61,271 nucleotides of DNA from Cytophagaceae bacterium (lineage in GTDB: Bacteria > Bacteroidota > Bacteroidia > Cytophagales > Cytophagaceae), in the NCBI GenBank assembly GCA_029237685.1, contig JAQZBV010000005.1, forward strand, positions 1 to 61,271, given 5' to 3'. This document shows positions 725 to 7,459 of the stretch, piece by piece. The translations under genes and the position numbers were made by a program. The notes below the pieces were generated by a model, which worked only from the letters and a program-made list of their open reading frames with translations, ran no database searches and had not been told where the DNA came from. Numbering within the stretch: position 1 is the stretch's first letter; the number at the start of each line of letters is the position of its first letter.

Positions 725-1104
725 ATTAAGGTTTAATTATTGGTAAAACACAATTTTTAACCTCCCTTTAACAACAAGCTTAAATTCGTTCAAACATCAT
801 TTTTTTAAGTGAAGATTCAACAAAAAAATTACACGTTCACTTTTCACTTTAATCCTTCATAATTCAGCCTGATTTAATATTTTCAACTTAAAAAGACCAA
901 AAAACTTGAAAAGCCACCTGGCTATTTATACGGAAAAATAATCAGCTTACATGAAAAATAGGAATGCAAACAACAATTTCTAATTTAGTATTAAACCAAT
1001 ATAAAATATCACTATCTAATCAAAAATAGACTCTTTTGAACGGTATGACTCAAATCGTTCATTTTGACTAGAATCAATAAATAATACAAAAAAGACTCCG
1101 CCTT
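725..1104. other. AT-rich leader region upstream of the first chitinase
   Basis: No gene is visible. The region is very AT-rich. A short inverted repeat TGAACG...CGTTCA at 1037-1061 lies about 45 bases before the chitinase start and could be an operator; this is weak. No convincing TTTG/TAnnTTTG promoter pair was found. Confidence 0.3.
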
Positions 1105-2769
1105 ATGAAACCAGGAATAACCCTTGTTCAAAAAAAACTTTTCGGTACGATCTCCTTTCTACTCGTCCTCTTATTATTCCTAACTCCATTTGTACATGCC
1201 CAAAGAATCATCGGGTATTTCCCCAACTATAATTATTCCGCGGCCAACGCTTCAGGAATACAATATGCGAAAATGACTCACCTCTATTATTTTGCTTTGA
1301 ATCCAACTCAATCCGGCTATGGTCAGTCAACAGGCTCCTTATGGTACAATGATTCTTTTTCCTGGTTTACAACCACAAGCTTTAATGACGTAGTCACAAA
1401 AGCAAGAGCTGCCAATCCAAACATTAAAATTCTGATCGTGACAGGTGGTGCTCCGGGAAGTGATTCTGATTTGTCCCTTAGACTTCAATACATAGGGAGC
1501 AATGCCGGACCACTCAATACTTTTTGCAACAACATCATCAACTTCATGGTAGCGAATAACCTCGACGGCTGGGACCTCGATTGGGAGTTCCCGGATAATG
1601 CGGCAGCCCGTACGGCGCATCAGAATCTATTAGCAAAAATGCGATTCAAAGTGGATTCACTAAAAACAGCCAGTTGCAAATATTATGAAATCACTGCGGC
1701 TGTCGGCGGAGGTTATACTGATCGTTTAACACATACCTGCTGGAATCCGGCACATACCGATTACATCACACAAACAGCCATCAATTATTTGGATCAGCTC
1801 AACTTAATGACTTACGATGGAAACATCGGAGCAGCACCTTGTTCCTTCTCCAGCCATCAGCATTACGATTTGGTGACCAAAGCCTTTACCGATTGGAGGT
1901 CCAACTATACCATTCCTGCTTCCAAGATCAATATCGGTGTTGGGTTTTATGACAACGCACATACCGCTTTCAATTCCATAGGCAATGTCAACACACGCTA
2001 CAACAATGCCACCTATTGGAACGGCGGCAGCGGTTGTGCCAACATGCGGGCCAAAATTGATTACATCCATGCACAAGGCGGCGCCGGTACTATGATTTGG
2101 GAGTTGACGCAAGATAATCTTTGCGCAGGAACCACTCCGGCTTGTTATTCTCTATTAGACTGTATGTACCAGCATACGCAATCTACCTGGGGTACGTGGG
2201 TATCGCCGACTGTATCTTGTACGGCACCGGTAGACCTGGTTTCCTTTGTTGGCTCGTCAGGAGAACAAGGAAATGAATTGAATTGGTCAACAGCCAGTGA
2301 AGTCAACAACGATCGTTTTGAAATAGAAAAATCAATTGACGGTAGTACATTCACCATTATTGGCAGTGTAAATGGCGCGGGTAACAGCAACAGCTTGCTT
2401 ACCTATCATTTCACCGATGCAACAAACAACACCGACAAAAGTTATTACCGCTTGCATCAGTTCGATACCGATGGCAAAGCGACCTACAGCAAAACGATTG
2501 TCATACACAGTGTAAAGAAAGAATTGGCGCTGCTTGCAAGTCCCAATCCTTTTCGTGATCAATGCACGGTTAGCATTACTGGTGTGAAAGGAGAAGCCAC
2601 AGCACAATTGATCATCTACGATTTGATCGGCAATGTATACGACAATGAAATTAGGCAAGTAGGTAACGGCTCTATTGAAATCGGCAAAAATCTTCCGACC
2701 GGTATTTACATCTGCGCTTTGAAATCAGAGGATAAGACAACGCATTTGAGAATTATAAAAATGAAATAA
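1105..2769 (+). CDS. GH18 chitinase with T9SS sorting domain (paralog 1)
   Basis: Secreted endo-acting glycoside hydrolase, expected to cut beta-1,4 linkages in chitin. The 554-residue protein has a signal peptide (1-33, ending VHAQ), then a GH18 barrel. The family motif DxxDxDxE is intact as DGWDLDWE at 154-161, with E161 as catalytic acid. The downstream MxYD (LMTYDG) and closing MIWE strand are also present. Residues 380-470 form the linker module common in T9SS cargo (LNWSTASEVNNDRFEIEKS), followed by a type A sorting domain to the C-terminus. No chitin-binding module is present. The paralog at 5825-7459 has the same architecture. Chitin specificity is inferred from the family. Confidence 0.92.
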   Translation: MKPGITLVQKKLFGTISFLLVLLLFLTPFVHAQRIIGYFPNYNYSAANASGIQYAKMTHLYYFALNPTQSGYGQSTGSLWYNDSFSWFTTTSFNDVVTKARAANPNIKILIVTGGAPGSDSDLSLRLQYIGSNAGPLNTFCNNIINFMVANNLDGWDLDWEFPDNAAARTAHQNLLAKMRFKVDSLKTASCKYYEITAAVGGGYTDRLTHTCWNPAHTDYITQTAINYLDQLNLMTYDGNIGAAPCSFSSHQHYDLVTKAFTDWRSNYTIPASKINIGVGFYDNAHTAFNSIGNVNTRYNNATYWNGGSGCANMRAKIDYIHAQGGAGTMIWELTQDNLCAGTTPACYSLLDCMYQHTQSTWGTWVSPTVSCTAPVDLVSFVGSSGEQGNELNWSTASEVNNDRFEIEKSIDGSTFTIIGSVNGAGNSNSLLTYHFTDATNNTDKSYYRLHQFDTDGKATYSKTIVIHSVKKELALLASPNPFRDQCTVSITGVKGEATAQLIIYDLIGNVYDNEIRQVGNGSIEIGKNLPTGIYICALKSEDKTTHLRIIKMK

Positions 2770-2779
2770 TTAGTACTAC

Positions 2780-3448
2780 TTATGGAATATCAATTCTTTC
2801 GTACGCTATGGTATCAGTACTTGTCCTGTAAGCATATTTTACTAAACCATATTGCTTACTCCAATGAACAATGTAAGGTGTAATCGAATCTCTGTATTCT
2901 TCTCCGGATTTTGTATCACTTATCAATTTACTGGAAATAGTAAGCGTTAAACTTTGATTAAATCGCTGAAGAAAATCCTGACTGTAAATACGATTGAGAA
3001 TTAATATGTTTCCCCACGAGCCTTTCATCCAAAAGCCTTCCGCATCGGTAAAGTAACTGTTAAAATGATTCCACGTCGTAGTCGAATGCACATCCAAATT
3101 GCGGTTGCTTTTTTCATAGTAATAGTCGCTGCAGCATTTCCCTTTGTCCATCACAGCACAATCTCCTTTTTCAAGCGGATAAATTTCTTGAGCAGACAAA
3201 AAAATGGTGTCTCGGTCATTATTAGTAACATCTGCAGAAACACGTTTAAATACCCAATGCGTATCGGCGGGAAAACCCAGAATAGAAGTTTTTATTGCTG
3301 GTGTTAGTAATTGCTCCGTTTTTGAATCCAATCCCTCACATCCTCTTTTGCATTTACAGGAAGCAACTAAAAACAGGCATAGCACAGTGAGCATCAGTAA
3401 CGAGGTGAATTTATTTAGTACGCTGGAAATAGAAAAACACATTTTCAT
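2780..3448 (-). CDS. Hypothetical lipoprotein
   Basis: A 222-residue protein with an N-terminal hydrophobic stretch and a lipobox ending LVASC, followed by a Cys-rich segment (CKCKRGC). The body contains Trp- and Tyr-rich beta-like stretches. I do not recognise the family. It is convergent with the chitinase, which ends 10 bases away, and divergent from the membrane sensor at 3597. The shared 148-base region carries two palindromes (3471-3500 and 3550-3572) that could regulate both genes. An outer-membrane or periplasmic lipoprotein is the only safe call. Confidence 0.7.
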   Translation of the reverse strand: MKMCFSISSVLNKFTSLLMLTVLCLFLVASCKCKRGCEGLDSKTEQLLTPAIKTSILGFPADTHWVFKRVSADVTNNDRDTIFLSAQEIYPLEKGDCAVMDKGKCCSDYYYEKSNRNLDVHSTTTWNHFNSYFTDAEGFWMKGSWGNILILNRIYSQDFLQRFNQSLTLTISSKLISDTKSGEEYRDSITPYIVHWSKQYGLVKYAYRTSTDTIAYERIDIP

Positions 3449-3470
3449 CTGAGTCTATAGAACACAAAAA

Positions 3471-3500
3471 AAATTTATACCTTTATAAAGGTATAAATTT
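3471..3500. promoter_or_regulatory. Perfect 30-bp palindrome in divergent promoter region
   Basis: The two 10-base arms AAATTTATAC and GTATAAATTT flank the self-complementary core CTTTATAAAG, giving 30 bases of perfect dyad symmetry. It starts 23 bases upstream of the lipoprotein start and about 97 bases upstream of the sensor start. An operator is the most likely role; a hairpin in the lipoprotein mRNA leader is the alternative. Confidence 0.55.
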
Positions 3501-3549
3501 TAAGTTTAATTGACTATTCATTGACAAAAAACCATACCTTATTACACCC

Positions 3550-3572
3550 TTGTACGTACAATGTTCTTGTAC
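3550..3572. promoter_or_regulatory. TTGTAC palindrome with third half-site upstream of the sensor gene
   Basis: TTGTACGTACAA (3550-3561) is a perfect 12-base palindrome, and another TTGTAC half-site lies at 3567-3572, 17 bases from the first. It sits 25-47 bases before the ATG of the sensor/zinc-ribbon gene, where a repressor or activator would act. The assignment rests on symmetry and position only. Confidence 0.4.
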
Positions 3573-3596
3573 ACTAAAGAATAGGCTTATTCCTTC

Positions 3597-5504
3597 ATGA
3601 AAAACACGTGGCATCTTTCTGTCGTTTTATTTCTTTTCCTTTTAGGAAGGCATGCCATTGCTACAGATACAGTACTTGTCACCCATCAGACGTCCTCAAA
3701 AGATTTTAAACACATCACCCACCAATACCTTGATATTTTGCCTGACGCAGAAGGGCAATGGACTTTTGATGTTGTTCGTACTAAAACATTCAGACCATTA
3801 GAAGCAAAAGAAATCAGCAGCAACGGGGAATTTCTCTTCTCTAAAAACAAGGCCTGTGTATGGATCCGTTTTACCATACAAGGCACAAGCAAAAATAACC
3901 ATTGGCTCCTGGAGTTTTTAGATTTCAACATCAAGGACATCAAATTATACCTTCCGGATGAAAAGGGAATCTATACGGAATTTCAATCGGGTTATGCCTA
4001 TCCTTTTTCCTCGCGTGAAATCATTCATAAAAATCTGGATTTCTCCATTACTCTTTCCGAAGAGCCCCAAGTCATCTATGCGCGCATTGAACCGGGCAGT
4101 TCTACGGTACTCTCCGCTGAAATCAAATCATACGAAGGCTTCATTCAATATTCCCTGACGGAGTACATGTTGCTCGGCTTATTCTACGGCATCATGCTCG
4201 TCATGATTATTTATAATTTGATTTTATACTTTACGGTAAAAGAAAACTATTATGCCTATTATGTTTTCTATGCGCTTTGTGTAGCGCTTGCCAGCATGTG
4301 CCACGACGGCATTGGTTTTCAATACGTGTGGCCCACTCATCCCAACTGGAACAAAAGCATTCAGCTCTTCGCGCACTTCGGTTTAGTGCTGTGGACCTTG
4401 CTGTACTCTAAATGGTTTCTGAATACAAAAAACAACAGTCCAAAAATTGATCTGGTGATTAGAGTCATGATCGTATTGACGATGGTGTTACTCGCCGGTA
4501 TATTGATTTTCAAACCGGCACAATTGGGTTACCTCATTGTAGCAGCCACTGTTCCCTTTCTGATTGTGTACGGAGTAGCCATCAAAATCTACCGCAACGG
4601 GTTCAAGCCTGCCCGTTTTTTCCTGATGGCTTTTAGTTTTTTCTTTATCGGTTTTGTCATCCGCATCCTTACTTATTTTGGCATCATCGATAACTCTATT
4701 GTAGCGGTATATAGCTACAACATCGGTGTAGTATTGGAAATGATTTTATTTTCTGTAGCCATCGGCGATAAAATCAAAACCATCAAAGAAGAACGTGAAA
4801 TGGCACTGGTCGAGAAAGATGCCATTCAGCAAAAGATCATTGAACAATTGCATGAAAACGAAAAGCTGAGAACGAAAGTCAACCGTGAATTGGAAGACAA
4901 AGTCAGAGAGCGTACAGAAGAAGTAGAACTCAAAAACAAAGCGCTCCACGATGCCAATGCGAAACTGAAAGAACTCACCGAGCAAGCCAATCAATGGAAC
5001 ATCAAACTGGATCTCGACAATCGTCAGTTGCAAACGGAGATCAAAGAGATTGAAAAAGCACGCATCCTTTTAAAAGATGTGCGATTCGATGAATTCAGCA
5101 GTGTATTCCCGGATGAAAGATCCTGTTTGCAATACCTCGCCGAATTAAAATGGAAGGATGGTTACCATTGTAAAAAATGTGACAATACGACGTTTGGGAA
5201 AAGTAAAACACCATTTGGCCGTCGCTGCACGAAATGCAATTACGACGAATCACCAACGACCGATACGTTGTTTCACCGCTTGCGTTTTCCCATTACCAAA
5301 GCCTTTTACATGGTCTATCTGGTGAGCATTAAAGACAATTCGCTCACAGTAGATGAGCTCTCCGAAATCCTCTCCTTGCGCAGAGAAACGTGTTGGAGTT
5401 TCCGCAAGAAAATCCTGGAATCAAGGAAAAATTCAAAAACAACCCGTAAAGGAAACGAGGAAGACGGTTGGTCAGCCTTGGCCTTGATCTCCATTCAATC
5501 CTGA
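3597..5504 (+). CDS. 7TM-DISM membrane sensor fused to an IS1595-type transposase zinc ribbon
   Basis: A 635-residue protein. Residues 1-22 are a signal peptide and about 23-185 a 7TMR-DISMED2-like extracellular domain (beta-rich, with WIRFTI and WLLEFLDFNIKDIKLYLP). Residues 190-390 contain seven membrane segments of the 7TMR-DISM type. About 392-492 is a charged coiled coil. Residues 497-610 match the N-terminal zinc-ribbon/helix-turn-helix part of IS1595-family transposases: FPDERSCLQYL, then W-K-D-G-Y, Cys pairs C525/C528 and C544/C547, then TLFHRLRFP and a helical segment. In this family the output position usually holds a kinase, cyclase or GGDEF domain. No DDE nuclease domain is present. 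I infer a membrane-tethered DNA-binding sensor. Confidence 0.85.
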   Translation: MKNTWHLSVVLFLFLLGRHAIATDTVLVTHQTSSKDFKHITHQYLDILPDAEGQWTFDVVRTKTFRPLEAKEISSNGEFLFSKNKACVWIRFTIQGTSKNNHWLLEFLDFNIKDIKLYLPDEKGIYTEFQSGYAYPFSSREIIHKNLDFSITLSEEPQVIYARIEPGSSTVLSAEIKSYEGFIQYSLTEYMLLGLFYGIMLVMIIYNLILYFTVKENYYAYYVFYALCVALASMCHDGIGFQYVWPTHPNWNKSIQLFAHFGLVLWTLLYSKWFLNTKNNSPKIDLVIRVMIVLTMVLLAGILIFKPAQLGYLIVAATVPFLIVYGVAIKIYRNGFKPARFFLMAFSFFFIGFVIRILTYFGIIDNSIVAVYSYNIGVVLEMILFSVAIGDKIKTIKEEREMALVEKDAIQQKIIEQLHENEKLRTKVNRELEDKVRERTEEVELKNKALHDANAKLKELTEQANQWNIKLDLDNRQLQTEIKEIEKARILLKDVRFDEFSSVFPDERSCLQYLAELKWKDGYHCKKCDNTTFGKSKTPFGRRCTKCNYDESPTTDTLFHRLRFPITKAFYMVYLVSIKDNSLTVDELSEILSLRRETCWSFRKKILESRKNSKTTRKGNEEDGWSALALISIQS

Positions 5505-5824
5505 TTTTTAGTAAAAAAATACCTTTCGCCCACTAAGTGCAATAAGCTCCCTTTTAGGAGTGGTTAATGCCCTGCCTTTCAATAAAACTTCCCCTTTAAC
5601 GGCTTTTTTTATCCGCAATTTCATGCGAGTAAATCACTGAAAACCAGTGAGGAAATTGTCATTTTTTAATTCATTCGATTGCAATCGATGTAGGAACATT
5701 TGATCTTCATGTAATGGCAGCTCAAAATGAAGCGCTGAGAGAAAGACTCCATTCTCTGCTTCAATTTAGGCTGTCCGCCAAGCATTCTGTTTTGTTAGAA
5801 AAATACAATTAAACGGTATTTCTT
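5505..5824. other. Intergenic region with a possible 32-codon ORF
   Basis: No clear gene or terminator. An ATG at 5714 opens a 32-codon frame ending at 5812 (MAAQNEALRERLHSLLQFRL at its start). The same frame stays open upstream to 5651 without an ATG (IDVGTFDLHV precedes the Met). The amphipathic composition is protein-like, but no ribosome site is seen. It may be a decayed gene fragment or a very small protein. Confidence 0.25.
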
Positions 5825-7459
5825 ATGCTACACTACAAGAAGAGAATTATTCGAAGCATCCTTGTCCTGGTTTTGCTATTCCTCAGTACTGCTGTGCATG
5901 CCCAAAGAATCATTGGCTATTACCCTGACTATGCCTATACGGCTGCCAGTGCAAACAACATACAATACGCCAAGTTGACACACTTGTATTATTTCGCCAT
6001 CAATCCCACCCGAACCACAACCGGTCAAAGTGCCGGCGCTTTAGGATATAACGATGTATGGTTCACTACGGCCCGTTTCAACGATGTCATCGCCAAAGCC
6101 AGAGCAGCGAATCCTGCCATCAAGATTTGTATTGTTACCGGTGGAATGCCAGGTTCTGATTGGGACTTGTCTGACCGCTTGGAATACATCGGCAGTAATC
6201 CCGCAATACTCAATACGTTCCTGGACAATATTATCTCCTTCATCACTACGCATAATTTGGACGGTTGGGATTTGGATTGGGAATTTCCAAGAACAGCATC
6301 CGCACGCACTGCGCATGAGAATATGTTGGTCGCAATGCGTATCAAAATAGATGCTTTAAAAACAAGCAGCTGCAAGCATTATGAACTAACTATTGCAGTA
6401 GGAGGTGGATATACAGATCTCACTTCCCCAAGAGAATGCTGGGGAGAATCGCATACTGAATTTATCACTCAAAATGCTGTCAATGCATTGGATTTTATGA
6501 ACATCATGTCCTATGATGGACCAGTCGGAGCAGCACCTTGTTCTTTTTCCAGTCAACAGCATTACGACCTTTTCGTTAAATCTTTCAACGATTGGCGTGC
6601 AACGGTTTCCATTCCCGCTTCCAAAATTAACATGGGTGTGGGATTCTATGATAACTCCGGTACCGCTTTTAATAGCATTGGAAATGTCAACACACGCTAC
6701 AACGCTACGTATTGGAACGGCGGCAGCGGATGCCCCAACATGCAATCAAAAATTAACTTCACCCGCGCACAAGGCGCTGCCGGAGTTTTTATCTGGGAAT
6801 TGATACAAGATAATTTGTGCGCTGGTACCACTCCTTCCTGCTATTCTTTATTGGATTGTATGTATCAATATACACAGAGCACATGGGGCACATGGGTTTC
6901 TCCCGGCAATCCCTGCTCATTGCCTGTAACCCTTCTACAATTTACGGGACGCAACAACGGAACATCACGTATGTTGAACTGGACCACTGCCACAGAAAAA
7001 GACAACGAACGCTTTGACATTGAAAAATCATTCGATGGGAAATCATTCGAGACCATAGGAAGCATACCTGGAAATGACAATTCCAATACCGCCATCCACT
7101 ACGAATACACCGACCACTCCAACAGTAACGGCACCGTATATTACAGATTGAATCAACACGATTTCGACGGCACTTCTTCACGCAGTTCCATCATTTCTAT
7201 TTCCTCTTCCATTGCTACACATACCATTTATCCCAATCCATTTGAAGACTTCTTTGAGATTACCTGTCCGTCTGATGAAGAGACCACAGCACGAATTATC
7301 TTTTCTGATTTGAGCGGCAGAATCCTCTCTGATGAACTACTCAACACCAATGCCGGTAAAATTCAAACCGGACATGCACTTCCTGCAGGCGTATTCCTTT
7401 GTACACTGGTCACTTCAAACACTACACTCAGCCTACGCGTTGTGAAAACAAAACAATAG
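5825..7459 (+). CDS. GH18 chitinase with T9SS sorting domain (paralog 2)
   Basis: A 544-residue secreted chitinase with the same order as the gene at 1105: signal peptide (ending AVHAQ, 26-27), GH18 barrel with DGWDLDWE at 146-153 and E153 as acid, MSYDG segment, FIWE closing strand, linker module (LNWTTATEKDNERFDIEKS) and type A sorting domain ending RVVKTKQ. The catalytic domains are close paralogs, while linkers and sorting domains diverge more. Four bases separate its stop from the next secreted protein gene, so the two are probably co-transcribed. Substrate is inferred from the family. Confidence 0.92.
   Translation: MLHYKKRIIRSILVLVLLFLSTAVHAQRIIGYYPDYAYTAASANNIQYAKLTHLYYFAINPTRTTTGQSAGALGYNDVWFTTARFNDVIAKARAANPAIKICIVTGGMPGSDWDLSDRLEYIGSNPAILNTFLDNIISFITTHNLDGWDLDWEFPRTASARTAHENMLVAMRIKIDALKTSSCKHYELTIAVGGGYTDLTSPRECWGESHTEFITQNAVNALDFMNIMSYDGPVGAAPCSFSSQQHYDLFVKSFNDWRATVSIPASKINMGVGFYDNSGTAFNSIGNVNTRYNATYWNGGSGCPNMQSKINFTRAQGAAGVFIWELIQDNLCAGTTPSCYSLLDCMYQYTQSTWGTWVSPGNPCSLPVTLLQFTGRNNGTSRMLNWTTATEKDNERFDIEKSFDGKSFETIGSIPGNDNSNTAIHYEYTDHSNSNGTVYYRLNQHDFDGTSSRSSIISISSSIATHTIYPNPFEDFFEITCPSDEETTARIIFSDLSGRILSDELLNTNAGKIQTGHALPAGVFLCTLVTSNTTLSLRVVKTKQ

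Follow-up and report, generated by a model that had tools for sequence, protein, structure and literature searches.

A membrane receptor of Bacteroidota ending in an IS1595-type zinc ribbon, a probable regulator of glycan-use genes

The window studied here, that is the whole stretch of 61,271 nucleotides of Cytophagaceae bacterium contig JAQZBV010000005.1, carries a gene for a 7TMR-DISM receptor whose C-terminus is a zinc ribbon and an HTH segment related to IS1595 transposases. We propose, with a probability of about 0.8, that this protein regulates the transcription of glycan-use genes as a membrane one-component system whose output is a domesticated IS1595 transposase DNA-binding domain. 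The computational evidence comprises the architecture of the protein, its homology and conservation, the swapping of sensors in front of the same module, the gene neighbourhood and a recurrent promoter motif.

Domain organization of the receptor

The coordinates of the features are collected in Table 1. The reading frame is open and uninterrupted, as stated in the original prediction, and the 7TMR-DISM sensor proposed there was readily recovered, with PF07696 and PF07695 both far above cut-off in Pfam. At the C-terminus, the Zn_ribbon_IS1595 profile matched with 28.0 bits as compared to a Pfam cut-off of 25.4. The profile check proposed for residues 497–610 indeed gave a significant PF12760 match. 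Further downstream, positions 3–55 of NCBIfam NF033547 (IS1595 transposase) matched residues 563–614 (4.3e-5); the match is far under the 75-bit cut-off of the complete model, which a fragment would not be expected to reach. The HTH segment is collinear with the stretch of IS1595 transposases located between the zinc ribbon and the DDE domain. Overall, the C-terminal intracellular output module of the 7TMR-DISM receptor consists of a helix, a zinc ribbon and an HTH segment, in agreement with the IS1595-type ribbon and HTH that had been predicted.

Table 1. Features of the window around the receptor gene, with strand and supporting evidence.
Feature	Position	Strand	Evidence
Candidate operator-like site CATTTTTTTAAGTGAAGA, upstream of GH18 gene 1 (tentative)	798..815	+	score 12.9, top three in 61 kb
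Secreted GH18 chitinase-like protein, type IX secretion tail	1105..2769	+	PF00704 7e-28, Por_Secre_tail 8.3e-7; synteny L168, L169
Perfect 32-bp palindrome between divergent gene starts; speculative operator	3470..3501	.	repeat search
7TMR-DISM receptor gene with zinc-ribbon/HTH output, complete, 635 aa	3597..5504	+	open frame and Pfam/NCBIfam, orthologues
7TMR-DISMED2 extracellular sensor domain, residues 43-176	3723..4124	+	PF07696 2.9e-22
Seven transmembrane helices (7TMR-DISM_7TM), residues 189-392	4161..4772	+	PF07695 1.1e-49; AlphaFold2 helices
Long signalling helix, probable coiled coil, residues 393-494	4773..5078	+	AlphaFold2; conserved KVxERTxEL motif
IS1595-type zinc ribbon, residues 505-549 (C525, C528, C544, C547)	5109..5243	+	PF12760 2.1e-6
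HTH segment, residues 563-616	5283..5444	+	NF033547 positions 3-55; modelled helices
Candidate operator-like site GCTTTTTTTATCCGCAAT, upstream of GH18 gene 2 (tentative)	5602..5619	+	score 12.3
Second GH18-like protein, 59% identical to first	5825..7459	+	BLAST and synteny

The AlphaFold2 model had a mean pLDDT of 84 for the full protein and of 82 for the module. It shows seven membrane helices, the last of which extends as a single helix over residues 368–492, with low confidence at 468–493. Past this helix, the ribbon strands are followed by helices 566–578, 585–592 and 596–616. Foldseek returned no significant structural match in the PDB (best E 0.64), the non-significant list being rich in Lrp- and MarR-type regulators, and the search of the PDB by sequence gave no solved DNA-binding relative.

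The original prediction also held that neither a DDE nuclease nor insertion ends accompany the module. Indeed, Pfam did not detect the DDE nuclease domain (PF12762) in the protein, no DDE_Tnp_IS1595 match was found across the whole genome at E ≤ 1, and no inverted-repeat pair resembling insertion-sequence ends flanks the gene within 3300–5900. The idea of an intact IS1595 element elsewhere in the genome was rejected on the same absence of a DDE match. Histidine kinase, receiver, AraC-type HTH and anti-sigma domains were found neither in the window protein nor in the four beta-propeller relatives described below.

Conservation and distribution of the module

The zinc-binding cysteines had been correctly assigned: C525/C528 and C544/C547 are kept in 73 of 73 aligned homologous modules. 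In the same alignment, K518 and E551 are also invariant, while W519, R542, R543, K568, T598 and K605 are nearly so. Basic residues are retained in nearly all sequences at K518, K527, R542/R543, K/R563, K568 and K605, and homologues have just 21–46 residues beyond K605. Between orthologues, dN rose from 0.02–0.04 in ribbon and HTH through about 0.06 in the helix and 0.09 in the membrane region to about 0.19 in the outer part; since dS was close to saturation, rate ratios are rough. The zinc-ribbon/HTH module is therefore the most constrained part of the protein and the outer part (residues 1–185) the fastest evolving.

Orthologues of the window protein are 83–84% and 59% identical to it and many paralogues have the same architecture, which places the fusion beyond chance. 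Six receptor-module fusion genes occur in the source genome, on six contigs, and the module was found in 19 of 19 sampled genomes of the window's family, many of them with several copies. Related fusions are present in Pedobacter, Albibacterium and Mongoliitalea, as well as in Flammeovirga, Persicobacter and Aureibacter. In the latter three, the copies are publicly annotated only as '7TM diverse intracellular signaling domain-containing protein'. The fusion is thus not confined to one genome beside a broken IS1595 copy, the outcome against which the original prediction was to be checked, but forms a large, old and expanded family, widespread in Bacteroidota and present in many genera. In locus L179 (6658–10558), two module receptors, 48% identical, stand in tandem near secreted proteins with type IX tails.

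The module is not restricted to 7TM sensors. Four Reg_prop/Y_Y_Y beta-propeller receptors (L148–L151) end in the same module, helix included, and a PAS-PAS protein of a Chitinophagales genome (L018, 4161–5552), with no membrane-domain matches, also carries it at its end. On the module tree, the propeller forms require at least two changes. Being found on three unrelated sensors (7TM, propeller and PAS), the module behaves as a portable output domain. The propeller proteins are HTCS-like, with the transposase module where kinase, receiver and AraC domains would stand. Stand-alone zinc-ribbon/HTH proteins devoid of a nuclease domain were also observed, one of 137 aa (L068, 1197–1649) and one of 171 aa on contig C148 of the source genome (L025, 7112–7624).

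Gene neighbourhood

Module genes often adjoin SusC/SusD or glycoside-hydrolase genes across the family. In the window, the receptor gene is flanked on both sides by GH18 genes, and the same holds in the orthologous loci. These two GH18 genes are the likely targets of the receptor. This link to glycan use, which is absent from the original prediction, gives the likely function.

In Pedobacter and Albibacterium, the module gene is followed by SusC and SusD. We examined 40 further loci, taken from hit lists and including orthologous loci that are not independent. In 20 of them, SusC was the next gene downstream of the module gene and on the same strand, and in 23, SusC or SusD was at most two genes away. 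None of the five window-family loci among the 40 had a SusC/SusD link; with this family left out, the module gene was directly upstream of SusC in 20 of 35 loci. As a control, any SusC or SusD was found in 3 of 20 arbitrary 16-kb regions from genomes of the same set. Several distinct clades show this linkage to SusC, as does the propeller protein L149, and the gene of the PAS protein L018 is oriented divergently from a SusC/SusD pair. Under independent annotation, plasmids of Persicobacter and Aureibacter have the module gene among GH2, GH3, GH16, GH43, GH97 and SusC/SusD genes.

The window's family is almost devoid of SusD, with 0–2 matches per genome in the five genomes searched. In this family, module genes frequently adjoin secreted glycoside hydrolases instead. 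Besides the GH18 loci, and with the neighbours to be scanned chosen by us, copies were observed near GH81 with GH16, GH30, a legume-type lectin, GH20, GH3 and GH97; about half of the family's loci had no obvious carbohydrate neighbour.

A candidate operator motif

A recurrent 18-mer, roughly TTGTTTTTTAAGTGATAA, was found in the gaps between regulator and SusC genes and constitutes a candidate operator. Its log-likelihood ratio was 107 as compared to at most 68.7 in 20 shuffles, and 87.7 as compared to at most 56.2 in 15 shuffles once near-duplicates were removed. The motif is often doubled in the same direction, with a spacing of 65–66 bp in four loci of one family and of 80–81 bp in seven loci of another, some of these seven being closely related. 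In held-out tests, p was 0.014 for f19 and 0.0005 for f18, the latter only with motif-seeded training, and the motif was not significant in the f13/f23 group (p 0.5). The 'control' promoter L264 used in the motif test is actually linked to a module gene. Unsupervised training on some subsets or on one family alone gave other patterns, including a LacI-like palindrome, so that cross-clade support for the motif is uneven.

In the window's family, which was never used in training, the motif was enriched upstream of regulator genes (p 2.4e-4, with orthologues that are not independent). The window gene's own upstream region gave a weak score (5.9). Both GH18-linked candidate sites of Table 1 are within the five best matrix matches of the 61 kb, and the site upstream of the second GH18 gene is kept in two orthologous loci as part of a conserved alignment block (scores of 12.3 in L168 and 11.6 in L169). 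Overall, we consider the TTGTTTTTTAAGTGATAA motif as a lead rather than a proof.

Several other elements were observed. The 18-bp core of the palindrome upstream of the receptor gene has a single mismatch-free occurrence in the genome, and the palindrome is partly kept in one orthologue and lost in another; because of this weak conservation and the lack of a second exact copy, it was left out of the evidence. A half-site, AAAAAATACCTTT, is present at 5514–5526, upstream of the second GH18 gene. LacI-like palindromes, AATCGATT and AAACGTTTGC, in the regulator-SusC gaps of L188, L190–L193, L200 and L218 suggest a second regulator. In L270 (G453 contig 1 near 957395), a SusC-type promoter located some 40 kb away from a module gene has two motif copies 77 bp apart and is a possible distant member of the regulon. 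Finally, repeats around L290, L291 and L293, considered as sister-transposon ends from which an operator could derive, had no likeness to the motif when compared by eye.

Function and relation to known systems

Sensor swapping, the constraint on the module, the SusC/SusD and glycoside-hydrolase neighbours and the paired promoter motif support the originally proposed reading of the module as a transcription-factor output. For the working of such a regulator, including its dimerisation, its DNA binding, its ligand and the genes it controls and in which direction, we infer the following scheme. The DISMED2 domain, outside the inner membrane, would sense a glycan fragment or a related envelope signal. 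The signal would cross the seven helices and the long, presumably dimeric helix to reach the cytoplasmic pair of zinc ribbon and HTH. This pair would bind DNA beside the inner membrane, near promoters of neighbouring genes, and switch glycan genes. In many relatives the targets would be SusC/SusD operons; in the window's family they would be secreted glycoside hydrolases such as the GH18 pair.

Zinc ribbons frequently mediate protein contacts. The module could accordingly have lost DNA binding and act as a protein-protein interaction or signalling adaptor, with a partner through which the receptor would control the glycan genes indirectly. The PDB searches, with no solved DNA-binding relative by sequence and no significant fold match, agree with such an adaptor. 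We nevertheless regard it as unlikely, because the HTH segment is kept together with the ribbon and basic residues are retained, because the module is C-terminal in three unrelated sensors, as expected of an output, and because many copies read straight into SusC with the recurrent motif in between.

Returning to direct transcription regulation, the window receptor would belong to the broad class of transmembrane transcription regulators (TTRs; ToxR and CadC types), with a new type of DNA-binding part. Like TTRs, it combines membrane segments and a predicted cytoplasmic DNA-binding domain in one polypeptide, but this predicted domain is of transposase origin. Bacteroidota are described as rich in TTRs in a study (PMC10269533) from whose main text the words 'transposase', 'zinc' and '7TMR' are absent. 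The same membrane part is present in the ChiS-type proteins of Proteobacteria, which are a precedent for a 7TMR-DISM fused to a DNA-binding domain (PMC8092284). ChiS-type proteins have the cryptic HTH of the ChiS family, whereas Pfam and NCBIfam assign to the window receptor a zinc ribbon and HTH of IS1595 kin; moreover, module receptors are from Bacteroidota and are often SusC/SusD-linked.

A review of hemicellulase regulation names HTCS, ECF/anti-sigma systems and catabolite repression (PMC10766802). HTCS and ECF sigma/anti-sigma systems are also membrane regulators of polysaccharide-use genes, and the Reg_prop/Y_Y_Y sensor typical of HTCS is used by four module relatives. In contrast to them, module receptors have no kinase, receiver, AraC or anti-sigma domain and a helix joins the sensor directly to the DNA-binding part. 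IS1595 transposases have in common with the module the zinc ribbon and the following HTH. Unlike them, the window protein has no DDE domain or terminal repeats, and the stretch is the C-terminus of a receptor. In the open-access literature, we found no published description of a receptor-transposase zinc ribbon fusion as a signalling output.

A wider proposal, for and against which we see about equal chances, is that a single IS1595 domestication in Bacteroidota gave rise to a class of polysaccharide-locus regulators standing beside HTCS, ECF/anti-sigma and SusR-like systems. The module would serve as a portable output for 7TM, propeller and PAS sensors and would act on paired TTGTTTTTTAAGTGATAA-like operators, 65–81 bp apart, between regulator and SusC.

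Public annotation gives only the membrane part of such receptors, and their probable role as gene switches is thereby missed. They are probably a class of membrane-bound switches for sugar-use genes that has largely escaped attention. If so, many Bacteroidota genomes would gain glycan regulators with a candidate operator (six in the source genome, a dozen or more in some relatives). This would also suggest how the window's family, with so few SusD genes, regulates its secreted enzymes. Moreover, a bacterial transposase DNA-binding domain would have been turned into a signalling output and then shuffled among sensors.

Origin of the module

Full-length Bacteroidota IS1595 transposases are up to 48% identical to the module over about 120 collinear residues. 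An unrooted tree of 122 sequences was built from 121 alignment columns. In it, 83 of the 84 fused modules lie on one side of one branch (SH-aLRT 84), beside groups of Bacteroidota IS1595 transposases. Grouping all 84 fused modules as one clade was not rejected (p-AU 0.77). The tree is compatible with a single capture from Bacteroidota IS1595, short of proof. The original prediction had proposed the capture of a transposase domain. This reading is supported, but the capture was probably a single ancient event in Bacteroidota, followed by duplication and domain shuffling, and not one that took place in the window gene. The DNA-binding part would then be the N-terminal domain of an IS1595 transposase minus its nuclease, later moved onto propeller and PAS sensors.

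The direction could also be reversed or shared, transposases and receptors having both drawn the domain from an older host zinc-ribbon regulator. Stand-alone zinc-ribbon/HTH proteins such as those of 137 and 171 aa do exist, and the unrooted, short alignment leaves room for this scenario. We hold it to be quite improbable, since the tree shows more diversity among full IS1595 transposases than among the fused receptors, which group together next to a single group of transposases of Bacteroidota. An accidental or recent functionless fusion between a receptor gene and part of an insertion sequence would account for the module being clearly of transposase kin, but it was rejected as almost certainly wrong in view of the distribution of one architecture across many families, strong purifying selection and a genome without IS1595 nuclease.

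Two further observations concern relatives of the module. In L166 (2929–4806), the module of a fused receptor falls outside the main fused group of the tree and has a very long branch, reflecting either a second capture or fast evolution. In addition, some 15 diverged genes resembling IS1595, each of roughly 310 aa, are present in genome G217 (L064, L161, L280–L288, L292 and L293). The one copy scanned, L064, has a weak DDE match only, and several copies have no clear terminal repeats; some of these genes may be domesticated.
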